Shown: positions 1 to 43,634, counted from the first letter of the stretch. The stretch: DNA of 64,000 nucleotides from Cyanobium sp. Morenito 9A2 (GCF_024345575.1 NZ_JAGQBJ010000005.1:124001-188000); one strand, 5' to 3'. The notes: generated from the letters alone by a model not told the origin. Program-made: numbers and translations.

Positions 1-83
1 GACGGCGTGGCAAAGGCCTCCAGATCCAGGGTCGTCCCGCCAGCTTCCGCACAGTTAAGGCGCCGAGATTCACCCGCCAGCTG

Positions 84-1319
84 ATGTTAATGACTTCTCA
101 ACACCCTTTGATAACCAGCATGGCCAATCCCTTCCCCCTGGACGGCGAGAGTTTTCTGAAGATCCGGATTTCCGTACGGATGCTGAAATGCAACTTCAGT
201 TGCAACTATTGCGTGGCAGCCGCAGGGCAGACGCAGGTGAGCGGGGTGGACTACAGCAGGGGTGCTAAACGCAACATGTGGGGGACGGAAAAAGGCCGGG
301 GCGCGGCACGTCAAGCGATCGAATGGGCGGCGTCTCTGCCCTATCGGATTGGCGTTCGCTACGACGTGCACGGGGAACCCTTCCTCAACGCCGATGTGAT
401 GGAGGATCTGGTCTGGCTCACAGGCCAGGCAAACGTTGCCTTTGTGGAAGTGCAGACCAATGCTTCACTGTTCAAGCAGCGTCTGCCGACCCTTGCAACA
501 GCCCTGGATCCCAAAAAGCTCAAACTCTTCTGCACGTTTCACCATACGGAGATCGCCCTCGATGATTTTCTGAGTAACGTCATCGTTGCCAGCGATCTGG
601 GATTTGACGTTGTGGTCAACACCTTGCTCGCAACGGACAATGTGGCCATCATCCGCGAAGCCCTGGAGCGCTGCGCCGAACTGACGATCGCCACCTCTGC
701 TGATCTGAAGTTTCCTGGGTTTGAGGTGCCGGCCACCGAGGCGATGGGTACACGGGTCGATGTTGACAAACGGGCCAGGCATTTTCTCAGCAAAGACCCC
801 ATCGAAGAACTTCTCCAGGCCGGTGAAGCAGGCCTGGAGGTCTTCCGGACGATGGCCGACAGCGGACCACTGGGGCGGGAGATTCGCTTTCTGGCGGCCC
901 TGCTGGTGGGACTCTATGGGGGAACGGGCCGGCTCTGCTCCGCCGGTCATGACTATCTGATTGTTGACAACTGGGGCGACGTCTTCCCCTGCACAAGTTA
1001 TGCGGATATCCAGATGGGTCAACTTGGTTCAGTCTTTGATCCTGGATTTGTTCCAGTACTCAGAGAAGCTGTGTACGCCCCATGTGCCTACGCAGAAACC
1101 TGCCACCAGAAGGAAGAATATGGAAATCTGAGCATTCTTCGAGAACACCGGGATCGGCTTAATATGAGCCTAAATTGTGTTTGCGGAACAGCCAAGGAGA
1201 TTGATCCCCAGACCCTTTTTGACAGCAGAATGGCCCTTCTGGAAACAAGCCGCAACAATCTTCAGACCGGCCGGATCGGGAAGCCCTTCTGCGATCCCAC
1301 CCCCGCAATCAGCGGATAG
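84..1319 (+). CDS. Radical SAM/SPASM-type protein of the accessory cluster
   Basis: Probable radical S-adenosylmethionine enzyme that cleaves SAM at a [4Fe-4S] cluster; substrate unknown. The cluster motif CX3CX2C is C36, C40, C43, followed by a GEPFLN stretch at the place of the usual GGEP motif. The C-terminal part matches the first half of a SPASM domain: C285, then 12 residues, G298, then 4 residues, C303. Further cysteines at 334, 340, 365 and 367 could hold one or two auxiliary clusters. Length of 411 aa suits SPASM enzymes. In-frame ATGs at 84, 90 and 120 are all possible starts. It is the first gene of a plus-strand operon, 21 nt before the transporter. The line starting at 1021 has only 28 G+C of 60 bases, against 49 of 60 in a sampled core-gene line (46141), which suggests transfer. 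No precursor peptide is visible nearby, so a small-molecule substrate is more likely than a RiPP. Confidence 0.85.
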   Translation: MLMTSQHPLITSMANPFPLDGESFLKIRISVRMLKCNFSCNYCVAAAGQTQVSGVDYSRGAKRNMWGTEKGRGAARQAIEWAASLPYRIGVRYDVHGEPFLNADVMEDLVWLTGQANVAFVEVQTNASLFKQRLPTLATALDPKKLKLFCTFHHTEIALDDFLSNVIVASDLGFDVVVNTLLATDNVAIIREALERCAELTIATSADLKFPGFEVPATEAMGTRVDVDKRARHFLSKDPIEELLQAGEAGLEVFRTMADSGPLGREIRFLAALLVGLYGGTGRLCSAGHDYLIVDNWGDVFPCTSYADIQMGQLGSVFDPGFVPVLREAVYAPCAYAETCHQKEEYGNLSILREHRDRLNMSLNCVCGTAKEIDPQTLFDSRMALLETSRNNLQTGRIGKPFCDPTPAISG

Positions 1320-1340
1320 GGGTCAGGTCCTCACAACGTC

Positions 1341-4073
1341 ATGCCATTCTCTTCCAAGCCTTCTCCACAATGGTGGCTGGAGGCCAGAGTGTTGATCTTT
1401 GCGCTGGTGGCCTCTCTGGGAGGCCTGCTGTTTGGCTTCAACGCGACAACACTCGGGCTGGTGGCCTCGACGGCGGCCAACGACTGGTCCCTCAGCCTGA
1501 CGTCCCAGTATCTGCTAAGTGGAGCCTTTTTCCTGGGCGCCATCCTGGGGGGGATCTTCATCGGCAGGTTCGGAGATGGCCTGAGCAGACGAGATGTGAT
1601 CACGACGAGTGCGGCCTGCTATGCCTTCTTCGGTTTTGCCTGTGCCATCTCTGAGCACTTCGAAGAGCTGGTGGTGGCGCGCTTCTTTCTGGGGATCATC
1701 GTTGGAGTGACGTCCCTGGCCATCCCCTTGTACATCGCTGAGATCTCCCAACCCAAAAACAGGGGAGCCCTGATCTCACTCAACCAGATGAGCATCACCC
1801 TGGGGATCGTTCTGGCTTTTGTAGCGGAGAACAGACTGGTGGATGAGCGTGACATCACGCAGCTCTACACCATCAGCGGCATTCTTGCCGTCGCCGTGAG
1901 CATGGGAGCCATCATTCTGCCTGACTCCCCAGCCTGGCTGATCAAGCAAGGAGATGAGGATGCCGCTCGCGCTGTTCTGAGGACCATCCACAGCGCGGAT
2001 GTGGAGCAGGAGGTGGCCGCCATCAAGGAGAGCCTGACTGACAGCCAGCAGAACGTGTGGGTGGAACTTCTGGAGCCATCGAATCGGAAGCTGCTGGGCA
2101 TTGGGATTCTGCTGTTCGCGATTCAGCAACTGAGTGGGATCAATTTTGTCCTGCAGCTGGCCGGAAATGGATCTCTGTTTAAGAGCTTGGACCTCGGTTG
2201 GGACATGGTGATTGTCATTGGGCTCGTCAATCTGATCAGCACGCTGTTCTTTCTCCTCCTCGTCGATCGCATCGGTCGCCGTCCCTTGCTTCTTGGGGGC
2301 ATGGCGGGCCTGGCCCTGTGCCTGGTCGGTCTGATTCTCGAATCCACAGGCCATGATGTTCTACGGATGGAAGCAGCCACCCATCCCCTGCTGCTACTTG
2401 GCTATGTGTTTTTCTTTGCCATCAGCCTGGGGCCCTTGCCCTGGCTCTTTGTGGCAGAGATGTATCCGCTGGCGGTGCGAGGAATCTCGATGAGTATTCC
2501 GATCACCATCAATTGGATCACCAATGCGATCATGGTGTTCGCCGCCCTGTCGGTGGATTCACCAGCGGATACGCTCGCTGTCTACTCGATTTCATTGACG
2601 GCCACTGTCATCGGGATTCCACTGTGCTTTCTGTTGTATCCAGAGACCCGGCGGATGCGCTTCTCGCAGATCCGATTCATGTGGCACCAATCGGGTACGG
2701 CCAGTGAAAGAAACGAGATCGCCGCCACACTGGCCACCATTGTCGTGACCATCGGTGGGATCTTCTTCGGTTACAACCTGACGGTCATTGCGGGAGCCTT
2801 GCTGCAGATCCGAGCGCAGTTTGCTCTCACACCACTGACCAGTGGACTGGTGGTGAGTTCGGTGCTGGTAGGGGCCATTCTAGGTTCCTTCATGAGCGGA
2901 AATCTGGCGGCGGCCTTCGGCAGGAGATACATGCTTTTGACGACAACGGTTGTTCTCATCGTCGGGACAGCCGTCTCAGGGCTCTCCGATTCAGCCCAGG
3001 CATTGATTCTCGGGCGCTTTGTCACCGGCCTGGCAACGGGGGTGACGGCGAGCATCGTGCCTCTTTACATTTCGGAAATCTCCCCCGCCTCGATTCGTGG
3101 TCGCTTGAACTCGATTCAGCACCTTGCTGTCGGTATTGGCGCACTCACCGCCTATGGCACCAACACCCTGCTGATGGAAGTGAACGAAGGATGGAGAGCG
3201 ATGTTGTATCTCGGATCTGTGCCAGCCTTGCTGCTGGGAATCGGGGCTCTCTTTCTGCCGGAGTCTCCTCGCTGGCTCATTTCCAAGTCCCGTTTCAGCA
3301 CAGCTGAACGGATGCTCGAACAACTCTGCGTCAACAACCCTGGGCAGGAGCTCGCCCTGATCAAGGCCACGGCCGAACAGGCTCCAGCCGGCTCCAGAAC
3401 TACACCCTTGTTCTCGAAAACCGTCCGCGGGCCCCTACTGATCGGCCTTGGCCTGGTGTTCTTCCAGGAGTGCACAGGTATCAACATCGTCACCTACTAC
3501 AGCCCGACGATCTTTCAAGCCAGTGGGGTAAACAATCCAACCACGGCCAGCCTTCTGACCACAATCGGCGTCGGTGTCTTCGGCCTGGCCATGACATCCC
3601 TGTCCTTTCTGCTAGTCGACCGCATGGGCCGCCGCAGCCAATTCCTGATGGGAATTCTTGGAGCGCTCACCAGTTCGATCGGCTTCGGGGTGATCTTTGG
3701 TGTCCTGCCCTTGGGCTCTCCCGCCGTTCAGTATCTGGTCTTGGCCTGCTTCATCCTGTTTGTTTCTTCCTTCTCCCTGAGCCTTGGTGCCGTCTGCGGG
3801 ATGATGGTTTCGGAGTTGTATCCGCAGTCGGTCAGAGATCGTGCCATCGGGTTTGTGATCGCCTTTCAGGTGCTCTGCGGCATGGTGGCCTCTTTTGTCT
3901 TTCCGATGCTCGCCAACTCGTTGGGTCTGGCGGTGGTGTTTTTCATCAATGCCGGAATCACCGCCCTGGCCCTTCCGTTCTGGTACTACCTCATGCCTGA
4001 AACACGGGGCCGGAGCCTGGAGGACATTGAACAGCACTGGCTGGCAGGCAGAAGTCCCGCAACCCTGCGATGA
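1341..4073 (+). CDS. Tandem (double-length) MFS transporter, sugar porter type
   Basis: A 910-residue membrane protein made of two complete major facilitator units in one reading frame. Unit 1 (about residues 1-450) has GRFGDGLSRR, RFFLGIIVGV, LPDSPAWL, QQLSGIN and YPETR. Unit 2 (about 455-910) repeats the series with RFVTGLATGV, LPESPRWL, CTGIN, DRMGRR and MPETRGRS. These are sugar-porter family signatures, and each half should have about 12 helices. Ordinary members are about 450-500 aa, so this is a duplication or fusion. The two halves have diverged clearly, so the event is not recent. Unit 2 keeps the more canonical motifs; unit 1 may be regulatory or have another specificity. It lies between the radical SAM gene and an SDR gene. 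Export of the cluster product or uptake of a sugar or polyol precursor are both possible. Confidence 0.93.
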   Translation: MPFSSKPSPQWWLEARVLIFALVASLGGLLFGFNATTLGLVASTAANDWSLSLTSQYLLSGAFFLGAILGGIFIGRFGDGLSRRDVITTSAACYAFFGFACAISEHFEELVVARFFLGIIVGVTSLAIPLYIAEISQPKNRGALISLNQMSITLGIVLAFVAENRLVDERDITQLYTISGILAVAVSMGAIILPDSPAWLIKQGDEDAARAVLRTIHSADVEQEVAAIKESLTDSQQNVWVELLEPSNRKLLGIGILLFAIQQLSGINFVLQLAGNGSLFKSLDLGWDMVIVIGLVNLISTLFFLLLVDRIGRRPLLLGGMAGLALCLVGLILESTGHDVLRMEAATHPLLLLGYVFFFAISLGPLPWLFVAEMYPLAVRGISMSIPITINWITNAIMVFAALSVDSPADTLAVYSISLTATVIGIPLCFLLYPETRRMRFSQIRFMWHQSGTASERNEIAATLATIVVTIGGIFFGYNLTVIAGALLQIRAQFALTPLTSGLVVSSVLVGAILGSFMSGNLAAAFGRRYMLLTTTVVLIVGTAVSGLSDSAQALILGRFVTGLATGVTASIVPLYISEISPASIRGRLNSIQHLAVGIGALTAYGTNTLLMEVNEGWRAMLYLGSVPALLLGIGALFLPESPRWLISKSRFSTAERMLEQLCVNNPGQELALIKATAEQAPAGSRTTPLFSKTVRGPLLIGLGLVFFQECTGINIVTYYSPTIFQASGVNNPTTASLLTTIGVGVFGLAMTSLSFLLVDRMGRRSQFLMGILGALTSSIGFGVIFGVLPLGSPAVQYLVLACFILFVSSFSLSLGAVCGMMVSELYPQSVRDRAIGFVIAFQVLCGMVASFVFPMLANSLGLAVVFFINAGITALALPFWYYLMPETRGRSLEDIEQHWLAGRSPATLR

Positions 4074-4155
4074 CGATCGGGGTGCCGTGCAGGAACCAGG
4101 AGGCCAGCTCAGCCCCTTCGTTGAGAGGTGGGGTCAGCGTTGCCAGCATGACACC

Positions 4156-4920
4156 ATGACACCTGCGTCACCCCCCCTGGAGGGCAAGATCGCGCTGGTC
4201 ACCGGAGCCTCTCGGGGCATCGGGGCTGCCATCGCGCTTCACCTCGCCGAAGCGGGTGCCTCGGTGGTGGTCAACTACGCGGCCCACAGGAACGGTGCCG
4301 AACGGATTGTCCGCAGCATCCGGGAGAACGGGGGCCAGGCGATGGCGGTGCAAGCGGATGTCGGCAAGGGCGAGGATGTCGAACGTCTGTTCCTGGCCTC
4401 TGATCGAGCCTTCGGTGGCGAACTGGATGTCCTTGTCAACAATGCCGGCGTGTACTACGCCACAGATCTGCAGGATGTGACGCCGGCAGTGTTCGATCAC
4501 CTCTTCAGGATCAACGTGCTCGGGGTGATTCTCTGCTGCCAGGCAGCGGCCCACCGATTTCCACAGATGGGCGGATCGATTATCAACATCAGCAGCCTCG
4601 CCGCCACCAAGGGGGCGACGGGAAGTCTTGTCTACAGCGCGACCAAGGGGGCCATTGATGCCTTGACCCGAACACTTTCACAGGACCTGGCGCCCCGTAA
4701 CATCCGCGTGAATGCCATCAATCCAGGGCTGGTGATCACAGAAGGAACTCGAACGGCAGGATTCACCACAGCCGCACTGGAGGAGCAATGGAAGGCGAAG
4801 ACAGCCCTGGGGAGAGTGGCAACGCCCGATGACATCGCGCCGGTGGTCCTGTTTCTCGCCTCCTCAGCCAGCCGATGGCTGACGGGGGAAACCATCCACA
4901 CCACAGGAGGTGTCCGATAA
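4156..4920 (+). CDS. Short-chain dehydrogenase/reductase (SDR)
   Basis: Classical SDR of 254 aa, a NAD(P)-dependent oxidoreductase. The cofactor motif TGASRGIG spans residues 16-23, NNAG lies near residue 95, and the catalytic residues are S147, Y160 and K164 (YSATK). The C-terminal LTGETIHTTGG is typical of the FabG-like branch. The frame stays open far upstream to 3895, inside the transporter gene, but the protein homology begins at the ATG at 4156, which I took as start. It is the third gene of the plus-strand accessory operon, 82 nt after the transporter. In context it probably reduces a ketone or aldehyde intermediate, or oxidises an alcohol; the real substrate cannot be read from the sequence. 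Confidence 0.9.
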   Translation: MTPASPPLEGKIALVTGASRGIGAAIALHLAEAGASVVVNYAAHRNGAERIVRSIRENGGQAMAVQADVGKGEDVERLFLASDRAFGGELDVLVNNAGVYYATDLQDVTPAVFDHLFRINVLGVILCCQAAAHRFPQMGGSIINISSLAATKGATGSLVYSATKGAIDALTRTLSQDLAPRNIRVNAINPGLVITEGTRTAGFTTAALEEQWKAKTALGRVATPDDIAPVVLFLASSASRWLTGETIHTTGGVR

Positions 4921-5071
4921 GCGACACAGCGCCCCACAGCTCCCTCAGCGCGACGCTCCCTGGCTCCATGGGTGCCAACCGCGCTCTTAACTCCGTGATT
5001 GCCGTGGCGATTCAGCCCAGCACAATTAAACTGTTGAACAGAACAAAATCCCTGGGCTTGAAAAGATCATC

Positions 5072-6841
5072 ATGAAAGGCTCTGATCTTTTTGCGAGTTA
5101 TCTCGAGCAGCGAGGGATCACCCATGTGTTCGAACTGATCGGCGGCACCATCACCTACCTTCTCGATTCCATCCAGCAGCGGACCTCAATCAAGATCATC
5201 AGCATGCACCATGAACAGGGCGCTGGTTTTGCAGCCGAAGCCTACGCCCGCCTCACAGGACGGCCCGGAATCGCCCTGGCGACGAGTGGTCCGGGGGCGA
5301 CCAATCTCCTCACCGCAATCGGCAGTTGCTATTTCGATTCAACCCCAGCCATCTTTGTTACCGGTCAGATCAACCGCGACGAGAGGAAAGGAGACCTCCC
5401 CATGCGTCAGCTCGGCTTCCAGGAAACCGACATCGTCGCCATGGCCCGACCGATCACCAAGGCGGCGATTCTGGTCGAGGATCCCGCCGATCTTCCCCAT
5501 CGACTCGAGGAGGCCTTTGAGCTGGCCCTCAGCGGTCGACCGGGCCCGGTGTTGCTGGACCTGCCGATGGAGGTGCAAACCGCCGAGATTCCCTCCCGGT
5601 CCCTGGGGCCGGCGTTCGCTCAAGGGACAACAGCCAGCGGCGATTCCTCTGACGCCACAGAGCGAATGGATCTGTTCTGGAAGGCCACCCGTACCGCCCT
5701 CAGCCGGGCCGAGCGTCCGCTGATTCTGGCGGGGGGAGGCATCCGAACATCGGGAGCAACGGAGGCCTTCCGCCGGTTTGTCCGGGCCTTGGGGGTGCCG
5801 GTGGTCCATTCGCTGATGGGGGTGGATGCGCTCCCCTTCGATGATCCCCTGCGCCTGGGCATGATCGGCCTGTACGGCAATCGCTGGGCCAACGTCGCCC
5901 TTTGCGACTGTGATGTTCTGCTGGTGCTGGGCAGTCGTCTCGACAGTCGCCAGACCGGAAGTGATACCGAGCTGTTCCGAGGGACCCGTTCGCTCCATCA
6001 CGTGGACTGTGACGCCCATGAACTGAACAACAGGGTCAAGGGATGTCAGACGCTGACGGTATCCCTGGAGGCGTTCTTTCGCCGCTGCGGGCAGGATCTG
6101 CCCGCAGCCCGAGGGCACGAAGCCTGGACCATCCTGCTGCAACAGCAACGGGAGCAATGGCCGGACACCGCCGAGCTCGGGGCCGTCAACGGCATCAACC
6201 CCAACCGACTCATGCAGCAGCTCTCCCAGGCCTCGGGCGCGGCAGCGGCTTTCGTGGTGGATGTGGGCCAGCATCAGATGTGGGCCGCCCAGTCGCTGCG
6301 GTTGCGGGACCACCAGCGCTTCCTGACCTCCGGGGGCATGGGGGCCATGGGATTTGCCCTGCCGGCGGCGATCGGAGCCTGCCTGGCGGCAGGGCAGCAG
6401 CCGGTGGTCGTGATCGCGGGCGACGGGGGATTCCAGATCAACATCCAGGAGCTGCAGACCATCAAACGGAACCGGCTGCCGATCAAGGTGCTGGTCCTCA
6501 ACAACCAGTGCCATGGCATGGTGCGTCAGATTCAGGATGTCGCCTTCCAGGCCCGGTACCAGTCAACGGTCTGGGGCTACGACGCGCCCTCCTTCACGGC
6601 CGTCGCTTCGGCCTATAGGATCCCATCGGGGCTGGTAACGCAGGAATCCGGGGTTGGCGAAGCCCTGCATGAGATGTGGGCTGATCCGGAGGCCCCCTTT
6701 CTTCTGGAGGTCGCCATCGACGCTTCGGTCAACGCCTACCCCAAAGCCATCGCAGGACGTCCCCTCTCGGAGATGGAGCCTCCCTTGGCCACGGACTCCA
6801 ATGGGCAAGATCAGGCAGACGACCCAGGGGGGGAGCGGTGA
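5072..6841 (+). CDS. Thiamine-diphosphate enzyme, acetolactate synthase-like
   Basis: ThDP-dependent enzyme of 589 aa with the three-domain acetolactate synthase fold: an N-terminal pyrimidine domain with the cofactor-activating Glu48 in HHEQGAGFAAEAYAR, a central domain, and a C-terminal ThDP/Mg site starting with GDGG at 450-453 and ending in the NN pair near 477. The family decarboxylates 2-oxo acids and joins the resulting carbanion to an aldehyde or ketone; IolD-type hydrolases share the fold. It is probably not the housekeeping ilvB, because it sits in a transporter/SDR/radical SAM operon, has no ilvN neighbour, and has diverged around the active site. It overlaps the 3' end of the carboxylic acid reductase gene by 31 nt. 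Since that enzyme makes an aldehyde, acyloin-type coupling is an attractive inference. The 151 nt before it hold no clear gene. Confidence 0.9.
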   Translation: MKGSDLFASYLEQRGITHVFELIGGTITYLLDSIQQRTSIKIISMHHEQGAGFAAEAYARLTGRPGIALATSGPGATNLLTAIGSCYFDSTPAIFVTGQINRDERKGDLPMRQLGFQETDIVAMARPITKAAILVEDPADLPHRLEEAFELALSGRPGPVLLDLPMEVQTAEIPSRSLGPAFAQGTTASGDSSDATERMDLFWKATRTALSRAERPLILAGGGIRTSGATEAFRRFVRALGVPVVHSLMGVDALPFDDPLRLGMIGLYGNRWANVALCDCDVLLVLGSRLDSRQTGSDTELFRGTRSLHHVDCDAHELNNRVKGCQTLTVSLEAFFRRCGQDLPAARGHEAWTILLQQQREQWPDTAELGAVNGINPNRLMQQLSQASGAAAAFVVDVGQHQMWAAQSLRLRDHQRFLTSGGMGAMGFALPAAIGACLAAGQQPVVVIAGDGGFQINIQELQTIKRNRLPIKVLVLNNQCHGMVRQIQDVAFQARYQSTVWGYDAPSFTAVASAYRIPSGLVTQESGVGEALHEMWADPEAPFLLEVAIDASVNAYPKAIAGRPLSEMEPPLATDSNGQDQADDPGGER

Positions 6842-9800
6842 ACGTCGCGGGCGAGGGAGTCGATCAGCCCACGCACGGCGAAGTCGTTGATCACCTTGGC
6901 CAGGTAGTCCGCCGGGAAGCTGGCGCGCAGATCACCGCCCCAGTGTTCTGAAACGGAGTGATCGGAAGCCCCCTCGCCGGGTCCCGGCGCCGCCGGCGCC
7001 AGGGGCGAACCATAGGCCTCCAGCACATCCAGCAACGACAGCGCCTGCTGCGGCGCGGGCAGCTCGAGCAGGGCCTGCTCAATTCGATCCAACCACTCGT
7101 CGTAGCTGGCCAACCGCTCCAGGGGACAACCTGCCGCCGCCATCCCGTCCACCAGGGCCTCCAGGGGGAACAGGCCATCGGACGGGCCAGCCAGGTCGAG
7201 CAGGTTGAAACCACCCGCCTCCGATGCCGCCAGGGAAACGATCGCCTCCGCCCACTGATCAACGGGCAGACCCCGGGCACGGAATCCCCGTTCCTCCCCA
7301 TCGGGCCCGGGGCCGGAGAAGCGCAACGGGGCCAGCCCCGTGCGCAGGATGCTGTAGATCAGGCGGCAGAAAATGTCGTGCTGGTTCATGTCCCCGGCCA
7401 ACCGGCGATCGGGGAGAATCAATTCCGGCCGGACGATGCGAACCGGAAGCCCTGTCACCGCGTGGGTGGAGCGCAGCAACTGCTCGCAGGCCCACTTGCT
7501 GGCGGCATAGCCGTTGGCATAGGAGTCATCGAGACGGATGCACTCCGTCCAGGGCGCCTCGCCGCTGGGTGTCCCGGACGGACGGCGGAGGCCGCCGACG
7601 GCAACTGTGGAGACGAAGTTGATGGACTTGCGCCTGTGCGCCATCGCCAGACGCACGATCTCCGCTGTTCCGGAGACATTGGGTCGCACAACATGGCGGT
7701 AGGCCAAACGATGGTTGACCAGGGCCGCGCAATGGCAGATGGCATCGACCTCATGGGCCACCCTGGCGTACGTGCTGGGCTCGAGCCCACACAGGGGCTC
7801 GGTGATGTCGCCGGCAAGGACCTTCAGATGGCGACCCGCCAAGGTGCGAAAGCGGAGCGCTGTGGCGCTGTCGTAGTGAGCGAAACGGGCCTCCAGCCGC
7901 TCCAGGGCTGAGTGGCGCTGGCTCGGCCGCACGAGACAGAAGAGCCGTCCGCCCGTGGTCGAGAGGCGCTCCAACCAGGCCAGACAGACCCGACCGCCCA
8001 GAAATCCGCTCGCCCCGGTGAGAAAAACCGACTGCACAGGCCAGGACCCGGGGGGGAGTTCCGCCACGGCATGGAGGATCGCCCTGTCGACCAACCTCTC
8101 CACCGCGACGTCTTCGGCCCTCAGCTCCCGGGCCTCAGCGGAGCGGCCGCCCCTCTCTCCGGGCAGGGCCGGGGTGGGTCCGGCTGGGTCGGCGCGGATG
8201 ATCCGCGCCCACTCCGCGACCGTGCCGCCGGGACCGAGGATCTGGCTGCCCTCAATGGAAACGCCAAAGAGCTCCTCGATCTGGACCGAAAGCTGAGCAG
8301 CGCCCAGGGAGTCGCCGCCCAGCTCGCGGAAACTCCTGGTCTGGAGCTCATCATGGCCCTGCACCCCCAGGCTGCTGCTCAGAAGCAGCAGCAGTCGACC
8401 CTCGACGGTGAGCTCGGCTTCCGGGTGCCGGAGGCTCTGCAGGACCGTGCGGCCATGGCTGTCGTGGGCCCCATACAGCTCGTCGAGGGCAGACAGATAG
8501 CGCTGGCGGATGGCCGGGCGGATCGGCTTGCCCAGCGAAGTCAGAAGGCCATTTTCATGGCTGAAGGGTTCCGTTGCGAGGATGAAATCCCGGGGGATCT
8601 CAAAGCTCTGCAGGCCCCGCTCTCGGGCCACCTCCAGCACCTCATGGCGCAGAAGGGCGATCCACTCCGCCTCGCCCATGGGCGGCTGGGCCCACCGCTC
8701 CAGGGCCGCCTGGTCGGGGACGACGACCGCCAGCAGGTAGGAACGGGAGCTGTCTCCATGCACATGGATCTGCCGCACGGAGGTGCAGGCTTCCACAAAC
8801 AGTTGCTCCAGCGCGCCAACGGCGACAAACTCCCCCTGCGAGAGCTTGATCACATTCTTGCGACGGTCGATGATGGCAATCCGGTTGGGGGCGCGCTCCT
8901 CGACGACATCACCGGTGCAACTGAATCCCTCCGCATCAAACAACTCGGCTGTGGCCTCAGGGTTGTTGAAATACTGGCGGATGCCAAAGCGTGTCTTGAC
9001 ACATAACTCTCCCCTCGGGAAAGGGCGATCCGTGAGAAAGTAACCCGATTCCGGCACATCCCTAAGCCGGTACTCAATGACGTTCCGGCGGTTGAGCAGA
9101 CCGTCCATGGCCAGCCCCCCGCTGGCCGTCTCGGTGCTGCTGTAGCCCTCATGCACAGGCACCTGAAACGTATCGGCCATGAGCGCACGAAGCCTGGGTG
9201 CGAGCGGCGCAGAGGCCACAACGATGCTTTGCAAGCGATCGCCCAGAAAGCAACGGAGCGAAGGTTCTGGCGCTGAGGTTCTGGCCCGGATCGATTGAAC
9301 ATGCTGATCAATCCACTCACAGAGGCGAGGGAAAAGAACCAGTGCGGTCGGACGCACCAGCTGAATATCCTCGAAAACGGTGGAGAGATCAGGCCTGAGG
9401 GTGAAACAGGCGATGCCACCTGAATTGAGGGCGGAGATCATCGCGTCCCGGCCCATCATGTGATGGAACGGTGCCAGGACAACAACAATTTTCGGGAATG
9501 GAGCGGTGACCGTTCGCCACGTGTTGATCAAGGCCCTGGTGGAGATGCAGGCACCCTTGGGGTGGCCGGTGCTGCCCGACGTGTGAATCAGCAGAGCCGG
9601 GACCTCGGGATCATCAACGCCCGCGGCGGAGAACTCAAAGCCGTCGCCGTGACCACGGTCGAGGAGCGACTGGAGCAGCCGCAGGGTCACCGGCGATCCC
9701 GCCTCCCGAAGCTGACGCTGGGCCTCCCCGAGGAGGGTTTGCTCGGCTGTGATCCGGGGATCGGCGTCGAAGACAATCAGACCTCTGATGCCGGCATGGC

Positions 9801-10311
9801 GCCTGACAAGATCGACGGCTGCGGGAAGTTGAACGATCGAAACTGCCAACGCGGCAGGAGCGATCTTCAGAAGGATGGCGTCGTACTCGGAGGCGGTGTG
9901 ATGGCCCGACAGAGGAGCGGGCACAGCCCTGACATAGGCGAGTGACAGGTCGATGACCGCGTAGTCAAGGCTCGCAAAGCCGAGGATGCCAACGGTCTCC
10001 CCCGGCCGCAGGCCGAGATCAGGGTCCGATCGCCAGACCATGGCCATGGCCCTGACCCGCTCGTGCAGCATGCGGTAGGTGATGGCACGGAACTCCGGCA
10101 GGATCTCTCGCCGGGTGGCGCCCGTGGCTGGGTCAACCCGGAGTTCATGGGCTCGCTCCGCCAGGGCAGGCCGTTCGCCGTAGGCCGAAAGGAACGTGTC
10201 GATAATCTCCTCGCAGGAGAGCCCTGGCGCCTGGACCCGCGCCGTCACGGAGGGATCGGGACCTTCGACGGACGGCCCCGACAGACCCAGGGGAATGGTG
10301 GCCTCGCTCAC
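6811..10311 (-). CDS. car: Carboxylic acid reductase (A-PCP-thioester reductase)
   Basis: A 1166-residue enzyme, the usual length of bacterial carboxylic acid reductases (CAR), which convert acids to aldehydes with ATP and NADPH. Visible parts in order: an AMP-forming adenylation domain with the P-loop HTSGSTGHPKGA near residues 243-255; a carrier domain with LGGDSLG, where Ser668 should carry phosphopantetheine; and a thioester reductase domain with TGASGFLGG near 764 and the catalytic YAASK near 934. There is no condensation domain, so it is not an elongating NRPS. Start is GTG, 13 nt after the radical SAM gene on the same strand. It needs a phosphopantetheinyl transferase; one lies at 48499-49206. 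The acid substrate is unknown. CARs are best known from actinomycetes and fungi, so its presence in a cyanobacterial-looking genome suggests transfer. Confidence 0.93.
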   Translation of the reverse strand: MSEATIPLGLSGPSVEGPDPSVTARVQAPGLSCEEIIDTFLSAYGERPALAERAHELRVDPATGATRREILPEFRAITYRMLHERVRAMAMVWRSDPDLGLRPGETVGILGFASLDYAVIDLSLAYVRAVPAPLSGHHTASEYDAILLKIAPAALAVSIVQLPAAVDLVRRHAGIRGLIVFDADPRITAEQTLLGEAQRQLREAGSPVTLRLLQSLLDRGHGDGFEFSAAGVDDPEVPALLIHTSGSTGHPKGACISTRALINTWRTVTAPFPKIVVVLAPFHHMMGRDAMISALNSGGIACFTLRPDLSTVFEDIQLVRPTALVLFPRLCEWIDQHVQSIRARTSAPEPSLRCFLGDRLQSIVVASAPLAPRLRALMADTFQVPVHEGYSSTETASGGLAMDGLLNRRNVIEYRLRDVPESGYFLTDRPFPRGELCVKTRFGIRQYFNNPEATAELFDAEGFSCTGDVVEERAPNRIAIIDRRKNVIKLSQGEFVAVGALEQLFVEACTSVRQIHVHGDSSRSYLLAVVVPDQAALERWAQPPMGEAEWIALLRHEVLEVARERGLQSFEIPRDFILATEPFSHENGLLTSLGKPIRPAIRQRYLSALDELYGAHDSHGRTVLQSLRHPEAELTVEGRLLLLLSSSLGVQGHDELQTRSFRELGGDSLGAAQLSVQIEELFGVSIEGSQILGPGGTVAEWARIIRADPAGPTPALPGERGGRSAEARELRAEDVAVERLVDRAILHAVAELPPGSWPVQSVFLTGASGFLGGRVCLAWLERLSTTGGRLFCLVRPSQRHSALERLEARFAHYDSATALRFRTLAGRHLKVLAGDITEPLCGLEPSTYARVAHEVDAICHCAALVNHRLAYRHVVRPNVSGTAEIVRLAMAHRRKSINFVSTVAVGGLRRPSGTPSGEAPWTECIRLDDSYANGYAASKWACEQLLRSTHAVTGLPVRIVRPELILPDRRLAGDMNQHDIFCRLIYSILRTGLAPLRFSGPGPDGEERGFRARGLPVDQWAEAIVSLAASEAGGFNLLDLAGPSDGLFPLEALVDGMAAAGCPLERLASYDEWLDRIEQALLELPAPQQALSLLDVLEAYGSPLAPAAPGPGEGASDHSVSEHWGGDLRASFPADYLAKVINDFAVRGLIDSLARDVHRSPPGSSA

Positions 10312-10324
10312 GGCGAGTCAGCCC

Positions 10325-11197
10325 TCAAGCCGGTGCTTTGGCAAACTCAAAGACAGGAAAGTTCTGGGGCAATTTGATGGCGTAGACACAGGTTTTACAG
10401 AGGTCATAGGAATGGAGAGGACTGGGGAGCAGGTCAGAAAAAGACTGCTCAAAGATGTTTCCCAGCACATGATCCAGATGGTAATCCTGACAACAGAGAA
10501 CAATATCTCCATTCGGAAGCATCACGTTGTTGTAGATGTATTCATCGCGACCGCAGATCACAGGGCCGTCATGGGACGCCGCTTGGAAGGATTCCGAAAC
10601 GCCTTGCTTCTCAAGATTCCCAGACCGTGAATTCATTGTTGGCAGCGCCACGCTGGACTGCGGAAAGATGGATTCGACATCGGGATGGATCGCGCCCATC
10701 GACATGACGGAAAAGTTCTGGATGCTGGCGGCTTTGAGAGCTTCAAGCACCTGCAGGTACTCCGGCGTGACATCGATCTTGGCCAATCCCCTCGCATCGG
10801 GAAGATGGATGGTGAATCCCCCATGGGGATAGGCGCTGAAGGGAATATCCTTGATCTGATCGACATCCTGCAGACTCATACCGACGGCGGTCGTGAACAC
10901 GCAAAGGGGATGCCCCTTGTGGTGCGCATGCAGGATCATCCTGGCGCATTCTTCGTTCAGAAATGGCTCGGAAAAGCCTGCAAAGATAATCGTGACATCA
11001 TCCGGCATTTTATCGAGAGCAAGTCTGAAGTCAGCGAAGGCCAGCTTGCGTTTAGGACTTCGATACCGGCCCAGGAGACTTTTCTGGGGACAATAGGTGC
11101 AGTTGACATTGCAACCGATGACCGTGGTGATCTCCATCATGCAAGCTGGAACCCGCACATCCCGCAAACTGAAGTGCGCCAGAGAGTGTGCGGCCAT
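10325..11197 (-). CDS. Radical SAM protein with SPASM/twitch domain
   Basis: Second radical SAM enzyme of the cluster, 290 aa from the ATG chosen here; a TTG 24 nt upstream gives 298 aa. The SAM cluster motif is C29, C33, C36. The stretch SEPFLN corresponds to the GEPFLN of the first radical SAM protein. The C-terminal part has C215, 14 residues, G, 4 residues, C (a CC pair), then a CX2C at 267 and 270, which matches a SPASM or twitch auxiliary-cluster domain. Small twitch enzymes of the BtrN type dehydrogenate sugar or cyclitol alcohols, so a small-molecule dehydrogenase or epimerase is plausible but unproven. It lies between the glycosyltransferase (83 nt upstream) and the carboxylic acid reductase (13 nt downstream). 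Base composition is low for this genome: 30 G+C of 60 in the line at 10381. Confidence 0.85.
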   Translation of the reverse strand: MAAHSLAHFSLRDVRVPACMMEITTVIGCNVNCTYCPQKSLLGRYRSPKRKLAFADFRLALDKMPDDVTIIFAGFSEPFLNEECARMILHAHHKGHPLCVFTTAVGMSLQDVDQIKDIPFSAYPHGGFTIHLPDARGLAKIDVTPEYLQVLEALKAASIQNFSVMSMGAIHPDVESIFPQSSVALPTMNSRSGNLEKQGVSESFQAASHDGPVICGRDEYIYNNVMLPNGDIVLCCQDYHLDHVLGNIFEQSFSDLLPSPLHSYDLCKTCVYAIKLPQNFPVFEFAKAPA

Positions 11198-11280
11198 GGC
11201 TGAATTCTTTCGCCTTTCCAAGGATGTAAGACCTTGGAGATTTTCTCAACCCTAGCACCAGATCAGTGATCAAGGGATGA

Positions 11281-12633
11281 TCAAGTCGCCTTGCGGCCAC
11301 CAGCCAGCCGATGTCCCTCGATGAACGCAACTGCCTGAGTCAGGCCAGGCTCGCGTTCCATCGTTCCCTTGAGCCGAGCGAGGCCCGATCTCAATCGCGC
11401 GTCATTCACGGCCTTGCCGATCAGTGCCAGCAGCCGATCTGCCGTGATCGCGCTGACATCAGCAGTCAGGGCCAGCTGGTGGTAGGCCGCACGGGCGGCG
11501 TTGCCAGGCTGGTCCCTGGCGCAGGGAAGGATCACCATGGGAACTTCATTCTGTACACATTCAAGGATGGAATTGAGGCCTCCGTGATGGACCATGACGA
11601 CCGCATGCCTCAGCAGTGAAAGCTGGGGAATCCAGGACGTCACCAGCAGATTCTGCGAAGACGGATAATCAGCGAGCAAAGCTGGATCGCTGATGTGGAG
11701 CACAAAGAACCACTGCGGAGCCGCTGCGCTGGCCCCTGCCACAGCCGAAAAAAATCTGCGGGCCTGCCGGTAGGAACCGGCACTTGTCCCAAGGGAACAA
11801 AGGATGATCGTCCTGTTGGCGGGATCAAAGGGAAGCTCTGGTTCGTTTCTCTGGAAGTCAATAAAGTCGCCGCAATGGTGCCGCTCCCTTCGCCCGGGGC
11901 CCGGGAATTGAAAGGCGGCCGGACACAGCACAAGCTCCGGCAGGATCAGATGGGGGCCGATTTCGTCCAGAAGGTAATTGACCTGGCGCTGGCAGCGGAA
12001 GTCCGACTGCCTGGCGATCGAAAGGAAGCTGTCGGTGAGATGGTGCATTCTCAGCGGGGCACGGTAAGCACCGAAAAGGCGGGAAGCCAGTCGCTTGCTG
12101 AACAAATGCTTGAGGTGCATCAGCTTCCAGGCCAGGGAGATCTGGAGGGCGGAGAACGCTCCCGGACGAGGCGTGATGGAGCTCACCGCAGGGGGGATCC
12201 GGGGGTTGTCACACAGAAACAGTGACGTCGAGACCTGAAGTGTCGAGATGCCCAGCCGGAGGCCCCTGAGGGCGACATACCAGAGGAACGAGTCGCAGAG
12301 TAGAAGGTCCGGGCGAGCCGCGATCAAACAGCTGTCGAGACTGCCGTCCACGATCGCTGTGGTGTAGCGACGGAAGAGCGTTTCCCCTGCCCGGCGGCGG
12401 GCCAGGCGGCTGGTCGGGGCCCCATCGGCGGGTTCCGCCCGAACCTGGTCAGGCTCCGCGAAGAGGTGCCCCGCAAAGGCGATGAAGTCGAAGCCCTGAT
12501 CCTCCACCAACGGCCTGATACGGGGCATCCCGAGGTAGGCCACCTGATGGCCCTGACAGACCAGCGCTCGGGCCAGCCGGAATGTCCCCAGGTGATGGCC
12601 CGGCTCGCCATGCATGGAGAACAGGATCTTCAT
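11281..12633 (-). CDS. GT1-family (UGT/MGT-like) glycosyltransferase
   Basis: GT-B fold glycosyltransferase of 450 aa. The N-terminus carries the acceptor-side signature HGEPGHHLGTFRLARAL, as in macrolide and UDP-glucuronosyl transferases. The nucleotide-sugar site is HHGGLNSILECVQNEVPMV near residue 345, followed by DQPGNAAR. The family transfers a sugar from a nucleotide sugar to a small acceptor such as an alcohol, phenol or acid. Start is ATG with a purine-rich AAGGA directly before it. As first gene of the minus-strand operon with the radical SAM and CAR genes, it probably glycosylates the cluster product. No sugar-nucleotide biosynthesis genes are in the cluster, so the donor would come from general metabolism. 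Confidence 0.9.
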   Translation of the reverse strand: MKILFSMHGEPGHHLGTFRLARALVCQGHQVAYLGMPRIRPLVEDQGFDFIAFAGHLFAEPDQVRAEPADGAPTSRLARRRAGETLFRRYTTAIVDGSLDSCLIAARPDLLLCDSFLWYVALRGLRLGISTLQVSTSLFLCDNPRIPPAVSSITPRPGAFSALQISLAWKLMHLKHLFSKRLASRLFGAYRAPLRMHHLTDSFLSIARQSDFRCQRQVNYLLDEIGPHLILPELVLCPAAFQFPGPGRRERHHCGDFIDFQRNEPELPFDPANRTIILCSLGTSAGSYRQARRFFSAVAGASAAAPQWFFVLHISDPALLADYPSSQNLLVTSWIPQLSLLRHAVVMVHHGGLNSILECVQNEVPMVILPCARDQPGNAARAAYHQLALTADVSAITADRLLALIGKAVNDARLRSGLARLKGTMEREPGLTQAVAFIEGHRLAGGRKAT

Positions 12634-14041
12634 TCCTTGGCCCCGTTTCCAAGCCGCGGGCCGGCGGCCTTCGCATACCCTGGCGGGCCCTGGCCAGCCT
12701 TCAGGGCCCGATCACCGGGGGATCCTGGAAGGCCGCCGGTGATGCGGCAGGCAGCGCCATCCGCACCAACGCCAACGACACCCGCTCCGGTCGAGCGTGC
12801 CCTGCTCTGGTGCCGAGAGGCAAGGGAGGCTGAGCTGGTGTCAGCGTCCGGGGGACCACCCGGCGGCAGAGGCTGGGCCTGGATGACAAACGCCGCGGCG
12901 ATCAACGGGACCCCGTGGGGGCATTCGGCTGAGGCGATCAGCTGGGCACCACCGTTGAAGGCGTTCGGCACGGTGGCGGCCTGGAACAACGTTGACGCCC
13001 CTGGCTTCGAGCCGGAGCGATGGCCAAGGTAGCTGGTTCGGCGTGGCGGCTCGGGGGTGGTCGATCGTCTGCGCTGACCGGATGTCGCTGACGCGGCTGC
13101 CGCTGGCGGGGCTGCCAGCGATGCCCAGACGGTTCGATCGCCAGTGGAGGGGTCCCGCGGCTGATGGGCCGGGGGATCGGCTTGGCCGTTGGTGCGTGCC
13201 GTGCCGGGTTTGGGGCGGATGGGTTTCCGATCCAGTGCCCGGCGGGCTGTTCTCCTGTCACCGGGGCGACAGGTGGCCCGTGGTCCCACCAGACACGGTG
13301 GCGGGTGATTCCCCCCGGGAACCCGCCACCCGCAGGGGGCACGGCGGCGGTCACGGCTGGTCCGGTGCCCTCCTCGCTCCGACCTGGCCCGCTGCCACTC
13401 CTGACCTTCGCGGCGGCGGCAGCGGTTGAGCGGACTACGGCCAGGTTCTGCAAGGGGCCCATGGCTCCGGGGCGTTGCGACGGGCGTCTGGAACGGAAGA
13501 CCCGGGTTCGAGGGTCCGCTCCGACGCCGAGGGCATGGCCAACGCCGGGGCCGCGCGCCGGACAACCCTGACCGCCCATGGCCTGGCGGCGCGAGACATC
13601 ACGCGGGCGCCAGGGGATTCCGCCCGGCTGCAATCGTCCACCCCCGCCGCAGAAACCGCTTCCATGCCACCGTCTTCCCTGGCCCCGGGGCCAGAACTCG
13701 CCCAGAACCTCACCCCAGACAGCAGAGGGGAGGGCGATGGCAGGGCGATGGCAAGGCGGAATCCCCGCCAAGCGCCCGGGGAACCGGACGGGTTCGGGAT
13801 CTCCAAGGAAACTGAAGAATCCGCAGATTCTCTCCCTGCCAGGCCGGTTCCCGTGGAGGTGGGTCAGGACGCTTCGGTCTCCGATCACCCCCGCAGCCGC
13901 CCTTTGACGCCAAGAACGCATCCGCCGCGCGCACCCAGGCTCGGGACCGTCCCGGCGCGGCCATGCGATCGCCCCCCTGGCCTTGTCAAGCCCAGGCGGC
14001 TGGACCCAACCCAGGCACCAGGTTGAAGAGCCCTGGGCTGC
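12634..14041. other. Gene-poor stretch of about 1.4 kb at the edge of the accessory cluster
   Basis: No gene is supported here. Several long open frames exist on both strands (for example minus 12630-13565 and 12938-13921), but their translations are runs of Gly, Pro, Arg and Ala without domains or motifs, and they overlap one another, as expected for stop-poor GC-rich DNA. No tRNA, transposase or integrase was recognised. A block of this size is unusual in an otherwise packed window. It may be decayed coding sequence, a regulatory region for the divergently placed cluster, or the scar of an insertion. Confidence 0.6.
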
Positions 14042-14611
14042 TCACGCCTGCCCCAGTGCGCCCACGGGCCGCAGGGCGCGCAGCCGCCGGCGCAGGTACC
14101 GAAGCATCCGCAACCACTGCTGGGCCGGGGCGTCGTAGAAGCTGAAGATGTCGCCGAAGGCGGCGAAGCCGTTGCGGTGGTGCTCCCAATGGCACTCAGG
14201 TGTCACCACACCGAGCCGATCACACAGCGCGCGCACGGGCTCCGGCGTGCGCCAGCCCAGGCTGCCCACGTGCCGCCAGACCACGTGCAGCTCCCCCAGC
14301 AGCAACCCGATCCCAGTGCCAAAGGGCGAAAGCGGCCAGAGCAAGGGCGCCAGCAACAGATAGGGCAACGCCCCCAGAAGCCCGTCAAGGATCACCAGCG
14401 GTTGGCGGGAGAGCACGGCGTAGTGGCGAAAACACCGGTTCCTGCCGTGGTGCACCTTGACATGAAAGCGACCGAAGGCGTGCTCCGGGACGTGATAAAA
14501 GAAAGTGGAAAGAAAATCACCCACCACCAGCAGCAACCAGGCCGTCAGAGAGGCCAACAACAAAGCACTCATGCTTGGAGCGAAACTGGCCAGAATGGAA
14601 GCCAATGCCAA
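14042..14611 (-). CDS. Histidine-box membrane protein, fatty acid hydroxylase/desaturase-like
   Basis: Membrane protein of 189 aa with about three hydrophobic segments (near residues 12-35 and 75-112) and clustered histidines: HVPEH, HVKVHH, HVVWRH and HWEHH. Such spaced His boxes bind a di-iron centre in the sterol desaturase/fatty acid hydroxylase superfamily, so an O2-dependent lipid or carotenoid hydroxylase or desaturase is the best guess. It is short for that superfamily and the HX3H/HX2HH pattern is not perfectly canonical, so the activity is uncertain. It follows the metallophosphoesterase gene by 20 nt on the same strand. The start is taken at the first ATG; a second Met at residue 14 is possible. 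Confidence 0.65.
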   Translation of the reverse strand: MALASILASFAPSMSALLLASLTAWLLLVVGDFLSTFFYHVPEHAFGRFHVKVHHGRNRCFRHYAVLSRQPLVILDGLLGALPYLLLAPLLWPLSPFGTGIGLLLGELHVVWRHVGSLGWRTPEPVRALCDRLGVVTPECHWEHHRNGFAAFGDIFSFYDAPAQQWLRMLRYLRRRLRALRPVGALGQA

Positions 14612-14631
14612 GATGAGCGCTCACAATTGGA

Positions 14632-35530: not shown

Positions 35531-38500
35531 CTAAGCAGAGTCTTGGCGATCCGCCTCAGCGAACCAGGCCTGTTCCAGCCCCTTGATCACCACATAGAAG
35601 GGCGGCACCACACCCAGCGAGAGCACCGTGGCCACCAGCAGGCCGCCGAAGATCACCGTGCCCAGGGATTGCTGGCTCTGGGCGCCGGCGGAGTGGGCCA
35701 CCACCAGGGGCATGAAGCCCGCCAGGGCCGCAATCGCCGTCATCAGGATGGGCCGCAGCCGCGATTCCGCAGAGGCAATCGCCGCCTCCACCGCACTCAT
35801 CCCGGCCTTCATGTGCTGCTCGGCCACCTCCACGATCAAGATGCCGTTCTTGGCCGCCAGTCCGATCAACGTCACCAATCCCACCTGGGCGTAGATGTTG
35901 AGGTCGATCGAGCGGATCGCCAGAAACGCCAGCGCCCCGAGCATCGCCAGGGGCACGGTCATCAGGATGATCACGGGGGTGACATAACTCTCGTACTGGG
36001 CCGAGAGCACCAGATACACCACCAGAATTCCGAGCCCGAAGACCAGCACACTGGCGCCACCTGCCGAAAGCTGGAGGGCGGCCAGGCCCGTGAAGGCATA
36101 GCCGATGTTGTTGAAATCGAGGTTGGTGAACACCTCCTGAATCTTGGCCAGCGCCTGGCCGGAGCTCTTGCTCGCCGCCTCAGCCCCCTGCACCAGGATC
36201 GTGCGGTAGAGGTTGTAGTGGCTGATCACCGGCGGGGCGCTGGTGAGCGTGACCTTGGCAAACTCCGACACGGGCACCAACTTGTTGTCGTTGGAGCGGA
36301 CGTAGTATCCCTCCACGTCTTCGATCGTGCTGCGGTTAGCCGCCTGTGACTGGACGTAGATGTTGCGCACCTGGCCGTTCTCATAGGTGAGGTTGGCGAA
36401 GTTGCTACCCGCCAGGATGCCGATCGTGCTCATCGCCTGGGAGAAATCGATGTTCAATGCCCCCAACATGTCGCGGTCGATGCTCAACTCGAAGGCCGGG
36501 GCACTGGGGATGAACTGGGTGTAAACCGAGCTGAAGAAACCGGTGGCCTGGGCTGCCGAGGTGAGTTTGGCGGCCTGTTCCGCCAGCTGAGTGAAGGTGT
36601 AGCCGCCGTTGCTGAGGTCGTTGAACTGGAAATAGAAGCCCCCCTGGGAGGAGAAACCTGGAATCGCCGGAGGCAAGCCGGCGCGTACGAAGCCGCTGCT
36701 GATCGTTTGCAGGCTGTCGTTGAGCCGTTGCACCACAGCGGCGGCCGAAGCCGAGGCGGCCGAGCGCTCCTCCAGGGGCTTGAGTCCGAAGAAGAACACC
36801 CCCTGGTCGGGGCTGGCGCCATTGAAGCCGTAGCCGCTGACCACCGTGCCAGCCACGATCTCCTCCTCCTTGCCCAGCACGCGGGACACTTCCTGGGCCG
36901 TGGCCTGGGTCTGGCTGAGGGAGGCGCCGTTCTGGAGTTGGAAGAAGCCCACCCCATAGCCCTGATCCTCGTCGGGGATGAAGGCCGAAGGCAGACTGGT
37001 GAAAGCGAAGACCGTGAGGACGATGCCGGCACCAAGGCCCACCAGAATGAGGCGGCGGCGCCGGATCAAGGTGGCGACCAAGGTGGCATAGCCGCTCTCC
37101 ACCTTGGCAAAGAAGACGTTGAAACGATTGAAGATCCAGGGCAGGTTGGCCCCGGCCAGCACGCCGAGCACCACGCCGAGGATGTAGGTCCACCCCCCCA
37201 CACCGTTGAAACGGCCGAAGGCCAGACCCACCACCACCCCGAGCACGATCCAGATCGGCCCCTTGGGGGGTTGGGGCTTACCCCCAAGGATCAGGCCCGA
37301 GAGCATCGGCGAGAAGGTAAGCGCATTGAAGGCAGAGATCGCAATCGAGAAAGCGATCGTGAGGGCAAACTGCTTGTAGATGATGCCGATGCCGCCGGGG
37401 TAGAAGGCCACCGGCACGAACACCGCCATCAGCACCAGGGCCGTGGCCACCAGAGCGCCGATAAGCTCGCCCATGCATTCGATTGCCGCCTCCCGGGCCT
37501 TCATGCCCCTCTCGATGTTCTTGGACACCGCCTCGATCACCACGATCGCGTCATCCACCACCAGACCCGTGGCCAGCACCAAACCCAGAAGGGTGAGCTG
37601 GTTGATCGAGAAGCCGAAGACCTTGACGAAGGCAAAGGTGCCCACCAGGGAGATCGGGATTGCCAGGCTGGGCACCACCGTGGCACGCCAATCCTGAAGG
37701 AAAAGGAACAGAATCAGCAGGACTAGGATGATTGCCAGACCAAGGGCGTCCACCACCCCTTCAACGGCCGATTCGATGAACTGACCGATGTTGTAGATCT
37801 GCTGCACGGTGACACCCGAGGGCACACCGGCGGCAAACTGGTTCATGACCGCCACCACCCCCTCGGACACATCGAGAGCGTTGCTCGCCGGGGTCTGGAA
37901 GACCGCCACGGTGATCGAGGGATTTCCCTTCTTGTCGACCGCCACCTGGCCAAAACTGTTGAAGCCATAGGTGGCACTTCCCACATCCTTGAGACGCAGG
38001 AGGTTGCCGGAGGTGGTGCGCCCCACGATCAGATCATTGAGCTCCTCCACCGACACCAGGTTGCCGTTGTTCTTGATCAGCAGCGGGTAGGCAAAGGCCT
38101 GATCGCCGCCCGCCGGCGGGCCACCCACCAGGCCACCGATCGCCACGGTGTTCTGGTTCTTGACCGCATTAACCACATCGTTGGCCGTAAGGCCGTTGGC
38201 CGTGATCTTCTTGGCATCGATGAACAACCAGAAGGCAGGGTTGGAGCCGCCCAGCAGGTTGACGTTGGCCACCCCGGGCACCCGGCCCAGCTGGTAGAAA
38301 AGGTTTTCGTAGATCAGGCCGTTGAGGTAGGCGGCATCAAACTGGCCCTCGGTGGAGCCGACCTGATAGGCCAGCAAAATCGAGGGGGTGGACTGCTCCA
38401 CCGAGATCCCAGTGGCCTGGACCTGCTGGGGCAATTGCGGCATCGCCAGGGAAACGCGGTTCTGCACGTTGACCTGATTGATGTTGATGTCTGTGCCTTC

Positions 38501-38791: not shown

Positions 38792-38800
38792 TGCTAGGCC

Positions 38801-39967: not shown

Positions 39968-39994
39968 GGAAAGAGCCCAACTGCGAACGCGAGG

Positions 39995-40312
39995 TTAGTC
40001 GCCCTTGGGCAGATCGTCCAAAGGCCTGTGGCGCTGGGGCCTCTGGCGCCGAGCTGCCGTGCGGGGTTGGCGGTGGTAGGCAGGATCGGGGTTGCGCTCC
40101 TGCAGCTGACGCACCGCTTCCAGCGTGAGGCCGGCCACGGCGCCGAAAGCGCAGAAAATCACAAAAAAGATCAGGTAGGTCCTGGGGCTCACCTGGGCCG
40201 GGGTGTTGGACACCACGGTCTTCAACATCAGGGCCATGGCGGCCCCCAGGGCGCCGCCGATGAGTGCTGCCAGGAGCACCTGGCGCCCGCGCAGGGGGAC
40301 CGGGGGCGCCAT
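39995..40312 (-). CDS. Small two-helix membrane protein within the RND operon
   Basis: A 105-aa protein with two hydrophobic segments (about residues 12-31 and 46-64) and a basic, proline-rich C-terminal tail. It overlaps the stop of permease A by one nucleotide and precedes adaptor B by 27 nt, so it is translated as part of the efflux operon. I do not recognise the family. A role as a pump accessory, comparable in size to AcrZ-like proteins, is speculation. Confidence 0.7.
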   Translation of the reverse strand: MAPPVPLRGRQVLLAALIGGALGAAMALMLKTVVSNTPAQVSPRTYLIFFVIFCAFGAVAGLTLEAVRQLQERNPDPAYHRQPRTAARRQRPQRHRPLDDLPKGD

Positions 40313-43620: not shown

Positions 43621-43634
43621 CGTTTACAGGCCGC

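Follow-up and report, generated by a model that had tools for sequence, protein, structure and literature searches.

The closest described counterparts of the enzyme analysed here are three carboxylic acid reductase (CAR) chains in the PDB, 5msc, 5msp and 5mso, which we take to be NiCAR, SrCAR and MmCAR, respectively. A different route to aldehydes is used by AAR, which reduces acyl-ACP without adenylation. The catalytic residues of CARs have been mapped in NcCAR, the Neurospora CAR, in which replacement of His237, Glu433, Ser595, Tyr844 or Lys848 by alanine abolished the activity (PMC5826065), and in SrCAR a long loop preceding the catalytic His reaches the substrate (PMC6874671). A survey of 48 sequences found CARs in actinobacteria only (PMC5396282), and an earlier note on the DNA described here held them to be known mainly from actinomycetes and fungi. 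This view is too narrow, since nine Sphingobium plasmids carry a CAR. The Sphingobium CAR (AP027325, L027) is like the present enzyme in occurring outside actinomycetes and fungi and in having alcohol dehydrogenase and MFS genes close by, in its case directly downstream; it differs in that it passes the CAR family model NF041592 (1587 bits), is 57% identical to NiCAR and 38% to the present enzyme, and has no glycosyltransferase or radical-SAM gene in the stretch viewed. No published account of the present cyanobacterial CAR clade or of its cluster was found in the open-access papers searched. What is new here is a deep CAR clade together with its gene context, while the logic of the enzyme is already known.

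The window, that is, the whole stretch of DNA analysed, comprises 64,000 nucleotides of Cyanobium sp. Morenito 9A2 (GCF_024345575.1 NZ_JAGQBJ010000005.1:124001-188000), a small cyanobacterium of the freshwater type. Positions are counted from its first letter, and negative positions lie to its left. The features of the locus are as follows, and the product of gene F is the CAR-type enzyme.

-1194 to -49 (L007:18806-19951): gene A, zinc MDR alcohol dehydrogenase, start of the cluster, just left of the window
1-14627: part of the island inside the window; the island starts about 3.2 kb further left
84-1319, plus strand: gene B, radical-SAM-type protein with a SPASM-like C-terminus, 411 aa
1341-4073, plus strand: gene C, tandem (duplicated) sugar-type MFS transporter, 910 aa, PF00083 in two stretches
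4156-4920, plus strand: gene D, short-chain dehydrogenase (SDR), 254 aa, PF13561/PF00106
5072-6841, plus strand: gene E, acetolactate-synthase-like ThDP enzyme, PF02775/02776/00205
6811-10311, minus strand: gene F, CAR-type enzyme, 1166 aa, GTG start; adenylation (A) domain at about 18-615, carrier (T) at about 636-710 with Ser668, NADPH thioester reductase (R) at about 727-1110
10325-11221, minus strand: gene G, radical SAM/SPASM protein in a TTG-start frame, 298 aa, PF04055 and PF13186 above cut-off
11281-12633, minus strand: gene H, GT1/macrolide-type glycosyltransferase (GT), 450 aa, PF00201 and PF06722 above cut-off
12690-12971, minus strand: probable relic of gene I, an uncharacterised cluster-adjacent gene (tblastn, 37% over 94 aa, E 2e-11)
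48499-49206, minus strand: 4'-phosphopantetheinyl transferase (PPTase), the sole PF01648 match in the genome

Domain organization and catalytic residues

A full-length CAR had been proposed at 6811-10311; these coordinates are exact, and the strand has to be corrected to minus, as the plus strand across this interval is riddled with stops and the coding frame lies on the other strand. The Pfam domains AMP-binding (PF00501, residues 73-447), PP-binding (PF00550, 640-704) and NAD_binding_4 (PF07993, 764-1024) were all found in F above cut-off, and the three CAR chains were its top matches in the PDB (E 6e-232 to 3e-211, residues 17-1110), in agreement with the intact A, carrier and reductase domains claimed for it. 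The key residues singled out at that time were also located: HTSGSTG at 243-249, Ser668 within LGGDSLG, and YAASK with Tyr935 and Lys939. In the alignment, TGxxGxxG from 765 and GxxN976xxD were retained, and all five residues essential in NcCAR had equivalents in F, namely His284, Glu494, Ser668, Tyr935 and Lys939. F has in common with NiCAR, SrCAR and MmCAR the A-T-R order, the length, the P-loop and the motifs PxxH, LSxGE, LGGDSL, TGxxGxxG, YxxxK and GxxNxxD. CAR activity of F is predicted from this homology.

The F gene is single-copy in a 3.1-Mb genome that is 99.79% complete. Its orthologues elsewhere were intact, with dN/dS of about 0.27-0.39, so F is a maintained gene and not a chance occurrence. 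The closest named relatives of the protein were from Aphanothece saxicola, A. cf. minutissima CCALA 015 and Cyanobium sp. N.Huapi 1H5, which bears out the cyanobacterial origin suspected from the DNA. Contamination as the source of F was ruled out by the low contamination of the genome (0.04%), by the match of the flanks to a congener (82-90%) and by the orthologues in other cyanobacterial genomes. The same genome also encodes the aldehyde-forming AAR/ADO system, with AAR (TIGR04058, 601.9 bits) and ADO (TIGR04059, 404.5 bits) both above cut-off, so that F represents a second potential aldehyde route, as had been anticipated. AAR is unrelated to F in sequence and is encoded on another contig.

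A separate clade among CARs

The best NCBIfam match of F was the CAR equivalog model NF041592 (carboxyl_red), with a profile match ending near position 1112-1118 of 1160 and a score of 995 bits against the curated cut-off of 1300. Three orthologues of F scored 961-973 bits, and other bacterial CARs scored 1284-1621 (Curtobacterium 1284; Sphingobium, Mycolicibacterium and Streptomyces 1583-1621). Because the scores of F and its orthologues lie under the cut-off, F was kept out of the equivalog and placed as a CAR-like sister clade. The seven cyanobacterial CARs were 53-94% identical to one another and 35-41% identical to NiCAR, MmCAR, SrCAR and the plasmid CARs of Sphingobium, Mycolicibacterium, Tsukamurella, Streptomyces and Curtobacterium (39-40% for F against NiCAR, SrCAR and MmCAR), and the non-cyanobacterial CARs compared were 44-63% identical among themselves. 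In the A-domain tree and in the R-domain tree alike, the seven cyanobacterial CARs formed one clade with a support of 100/100, in trees with several long outgroup branches and a bootstrap not fully settled. By these comparisons, F and its orthologues from six other genomes are a separate deep CAR clade, not the ordinary actinobacterial type. The identification of F as a CAR therefore holds for the A-T-R, CAR-type architecture, and it does not hold in the sense of a plain actinomycete- or fungal-type enzyme, given the identity of 35-41%, the score under the NF041592 cut-off and the changed motifs.

The clade differs from the other CARs by 22 alignment columns that are fixed differently. At the adenylation motifs these include His for Tyr at 243, Cys for Met at 255, Phe for Val at 327 and Ser for Gly at 391, and the A5-type motif carries an insertion of two residues, TA, at 395-396. 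The cyanobacterial CARs have no counterpart of the long loop that precedes the catalytic His of SrCAR, and the corresponding loop of F is short. According to this substrate-pocket comparison, made by alignment only, the clade-specific changes in the A domain may alter the acid accepted by the enzyme.

The conserved cluster and its island

Loci from three genera were compared all against all, with additional targeted tblastn, and genes A, B, C, F and H were found in all clusters examined, forming the core of a conserved, mobile, multi-gene context that was absent from the earlier note. The genes are arranged in two convergent runs, A-B-C-D-E rightward and H-G-F leftward. B-C and H-G-F are tightly spaced, with a gap of 13 nt between F and G, which lies upstream of the CAR start, and of 59 nt between G and H, and the 3' end of F overlaps the convergent gene E by 31 bp. 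In locus L025 there is an overlap of 4 nt between the GT and CAR frames. D and E co-occur exactly: both are present in the window, L009/L020, L022 and L025, and both are missing in L010/L024, L011/L021 and L023. G is lacking in L025, and in L023 it has decayed. Since some clusters lack them, D, E and G are not needed for the core chemistry. An intact copy of gene I lies next to the clusters of the Cyanobium-type genus. All of the cluster genes measured (CAR, GT, B, C and G) were under purifying selection, with CAR and GT evolving faster (dN/dS of about 0.3 and about 0.2) than B, C and G (about 0.08-0.14 when compared with the window).

The top NCBIfam match of gene A was scyllo-inosose 3-dehydrogenase (220 bits against a cut-off of 450). 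B had no Pfam match, and its NCBIfam matches, NF038073 with 47 bits and several SPASM families, were all below cut-off; its CxxxCxxC is invariant, it is 73-84% identical across all clusters, and no match was found in 291 other genomes of the phylum. C matched TIGR00879 above cut-off (537.9 bits) and was 71-84% identical across all clusters. G was 80-85% identical in the Aphanothece/Cyanobium orthologues, and H was present in every CAR cluster examined at 54-75% identity. No characterised protein is closely related to B or G, and the AlphaFold models of both, built on four-sequence alignments, were poor (mean pLDDT 45-46).

The top PDB match of E was 5ahk (429 bits), and its score with the acetolactate synthase model TIGR00118 was 452.7 bits, under the cut-off of 538.35. 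E retains the ThDP motifs HHEQ and GDGGFQ...LNN. AHAS enzymes have a Trp after GMV-R-Q, and Ile replaced this Trp in all four of the aligned E proteins, a change that agrees with a function outside branched-chain amino-acid synthesis. E thus seems to act like a ThDP carboligase rather than an acetolactate synthase, and from the ThDP motifs, the Ile-for-Trp change and the 5ahk relative it could add a two-carbon unit.

No shared pathway was seen in the plasmid neighbourhoods of A, B, G and H homologues. These comprised actinomycete radical-SAM/creatininase/arylsulfotransferase clusters, rhizobial symbiotic regions, a PKS-type region in Bacillota and in a Klebsiella record, and an isolated GT. 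The actinomycete plasmids with a B homologue (L041:12742-19207, L042:12817-19204, L043:12761-19237) have one compact cluster in common, encoding radical SAM/SPASM, radical SAM, creatininase, arylsulfotransferase, glycosyltransferase, methyltransferase and ATPase proteins. Relatives of G (33-36% identity) lie at L046:9959-10813 and L047:9941-10795, in symbiotic/nif regions of Mesorhizobium and Sinorhizobium plasmids. In the Klebsiella grimontii plasmid pNY3A (L045), the LoaP/fabD/ectB set is more Bacillota-like than Klebsiella-like, possibly owing to misassembly or contamination.

In the congener, the counterparts of window positions -3181 and 14628 are only 68 bp apart (G001:C9:50016-50084); therefore the window's species has a stretch of about 17.8 kb that the congener lacks. 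The GC content is 56-63% over most of this island, 66-68% in the CAR gene and about 68-72% in the flanks. Near the clusters of the other genera nothing corresponds to the flank genes of the window (metallophosphatase and mtnA), so the cluster lies at different genome sites there. No direct repeat of at least 10 bases, tRNA or recognised integrase was found at the island edges. Just inside the right edge, at 14042-14611 on the minus strand, there is a small protein of the fatty-acid-hydroxylase family (PF04116), without a match near the other clusters, and two adjacent RND efflux pump/membrane-fusion gene pairs lie further on in the window (35531-44738, minus strand).

The F gene was found in 7 of 400 genomes of its family, belonging to three genera, and in 5 of the 42 genomes of the Aphanothece/Cyanobium-strain genus. 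The single congener sampled lacks it, and in a phylum-wide sample of 386 genomes only the window's own genome matched F at E <= 1e-60. F is therefore rare and patchy. A search of Pseudomonadota genomes, run without a positive control, gave no match. Judged from these comparisons, the cluster is mobile and patchily distributed. The CAR-less congener has elsewhere (L026, G001:C5:137000-156900) a PKS/NRPS-type open frame of about 2190 aa, the R domain of which is about 30% identical to the CAR R domain.

F might alternatively be an ordinary broad-specificity CAR for aromatic or fatty acids, acquired horizontally for housekeeping or detoxification and surrounded by its neighbours by chance. The standard catalytic machinery of F, the promiscuity of characterised CARs (PMC5396282, PMC5826065), the variability of several neighbour genes and the higher dN/dS of CAR than of B, C and G would agree with such an enzyme. 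We consider it unlikely, however, because the core A-B-C-F-H stays united at different genome sites across three genera, the frames of GT and CAR overlap in L025, and the fixed residues and the two-residue insertion at the adenylation motifs distinguish the clade.

Proposed function of the CAR-type enzyme

F could also be viewed as an NRPS-like loading/release module, with the R domain reducing a tethered, partner-built product to an aldehyde or alcohol instead of acting on a free acid. F is surrounded by tailoring enzymes, models such as MxcG and AusA match it weakly in NCBIfam, and the R domain of the mycobacterial Nrp (4dqv) nested among the CAR R domains in the R-domain tree, so that the R domain by itself distinguishes poorly between CAR and NRPS. 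The R domains of Mt Nrp and MxaA (4u7w) share the SDR-type R motifs with F, but they end multi-module synthases, whereas F consists of one A-T-R polypeptide whose A domain is of the CAR type. The Pfam search of the 1166-aa protein found no condensation domain, no KS and no second carrier domain, none of these is present among the annotated cluster genes, and with the amino-acid adenylation model TIGR01733 F scored 54 bits against a cut-off of 317, far below what an NRPS with a terminal reductase would show. In the A-domain tree, which included no NRPS A domain, the 15 CARs split from three acyl-CoA-ligase-type outgroups with a support of 100/100. The trees did not bring out the refuting outcome named in the earlier note, placement within ordinary NRPS-like reductases, a test for which the R domain does not suffice on its own. 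By its domain content and A-domain grouping, F is a CAR-type A-T-R enzyme and not an NRPS release module, and the NRPS-like reading is very improbable. A catabolic cluster would take up a compound linked to a sugar or cyclitol through the MFS protein, oxidise it with the dehydrogenases and use the CAR to detoxify the acid set free. Such a cluster would suit the scyllo-inosose match of A and the sugar-porter type of C, but it can hardly be expected, since a glycosyltransferase and two radical-SAM-type proteins suit biosynthesis better and an ATP- and NADPH-costly acid reduction would be an unlikely catabolic step in a phototroph.

F is probably an ATP/NADPH-dependent CAR of a distinct cyanobacterial clade, performing the aldehyde-forming step of a mobile biosynthetic cluster. 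The domain order, the catalytic residues, the clade and the conservation and mobility of the cluster are read from the sequences themselves; the order of the pathway, the acid and the product are speculative. In the proposed mechanism, the A domain of F would adenylate a carboxylic acid, and the acyl group would ride on the phosphopantetheine arm at Ser668, which is presumably attached by the single PPTase of the genome, converting the CAR carrier to the holo form. The R domain, with Tyr935 and Lys939, would then carry out one two-electron, NADPH-dependent reduction and release the aldehyde. The scaffold would be built or modified by the radical-SAM-type proteins and the dehydrogenases. Where present, E would join two carbons derived from pyruvate to an aldehyde or a ketone/keto-sugar, and D would reduce the product of E; this step is optional, because several clusters lack D and E. 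The GT1 enzyme H would glycosylate the product and the tandem MFS protein C would move it, although C could be an importer instead of an exporter. Most likely, the aldehyde from F goes into a glycosylated, exported natural product. A bolder proposal, which is possible but doubtful, is that the clade is a CAR subfamily with a substrate of its own, dedicated to a new family of natural products, in which a glycosylated aldehyde or acyloin/diol would arise by CAR-initiated chemistry and radical-SAM tailoring and, in some strains, by ThDP carboligation of the aldehyde that the CAR makes.

As biocatalysts, CARs are much in demand, and the sequence space of these enzymes is enlarged by a divergent, conserved cyanobacterial clade with altered adenylation motifs. 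The cluster of F is a natural-product lead in small cyanobacteria, in which the enzyme stands as a potential aldehyde route beside AAR/ADO.
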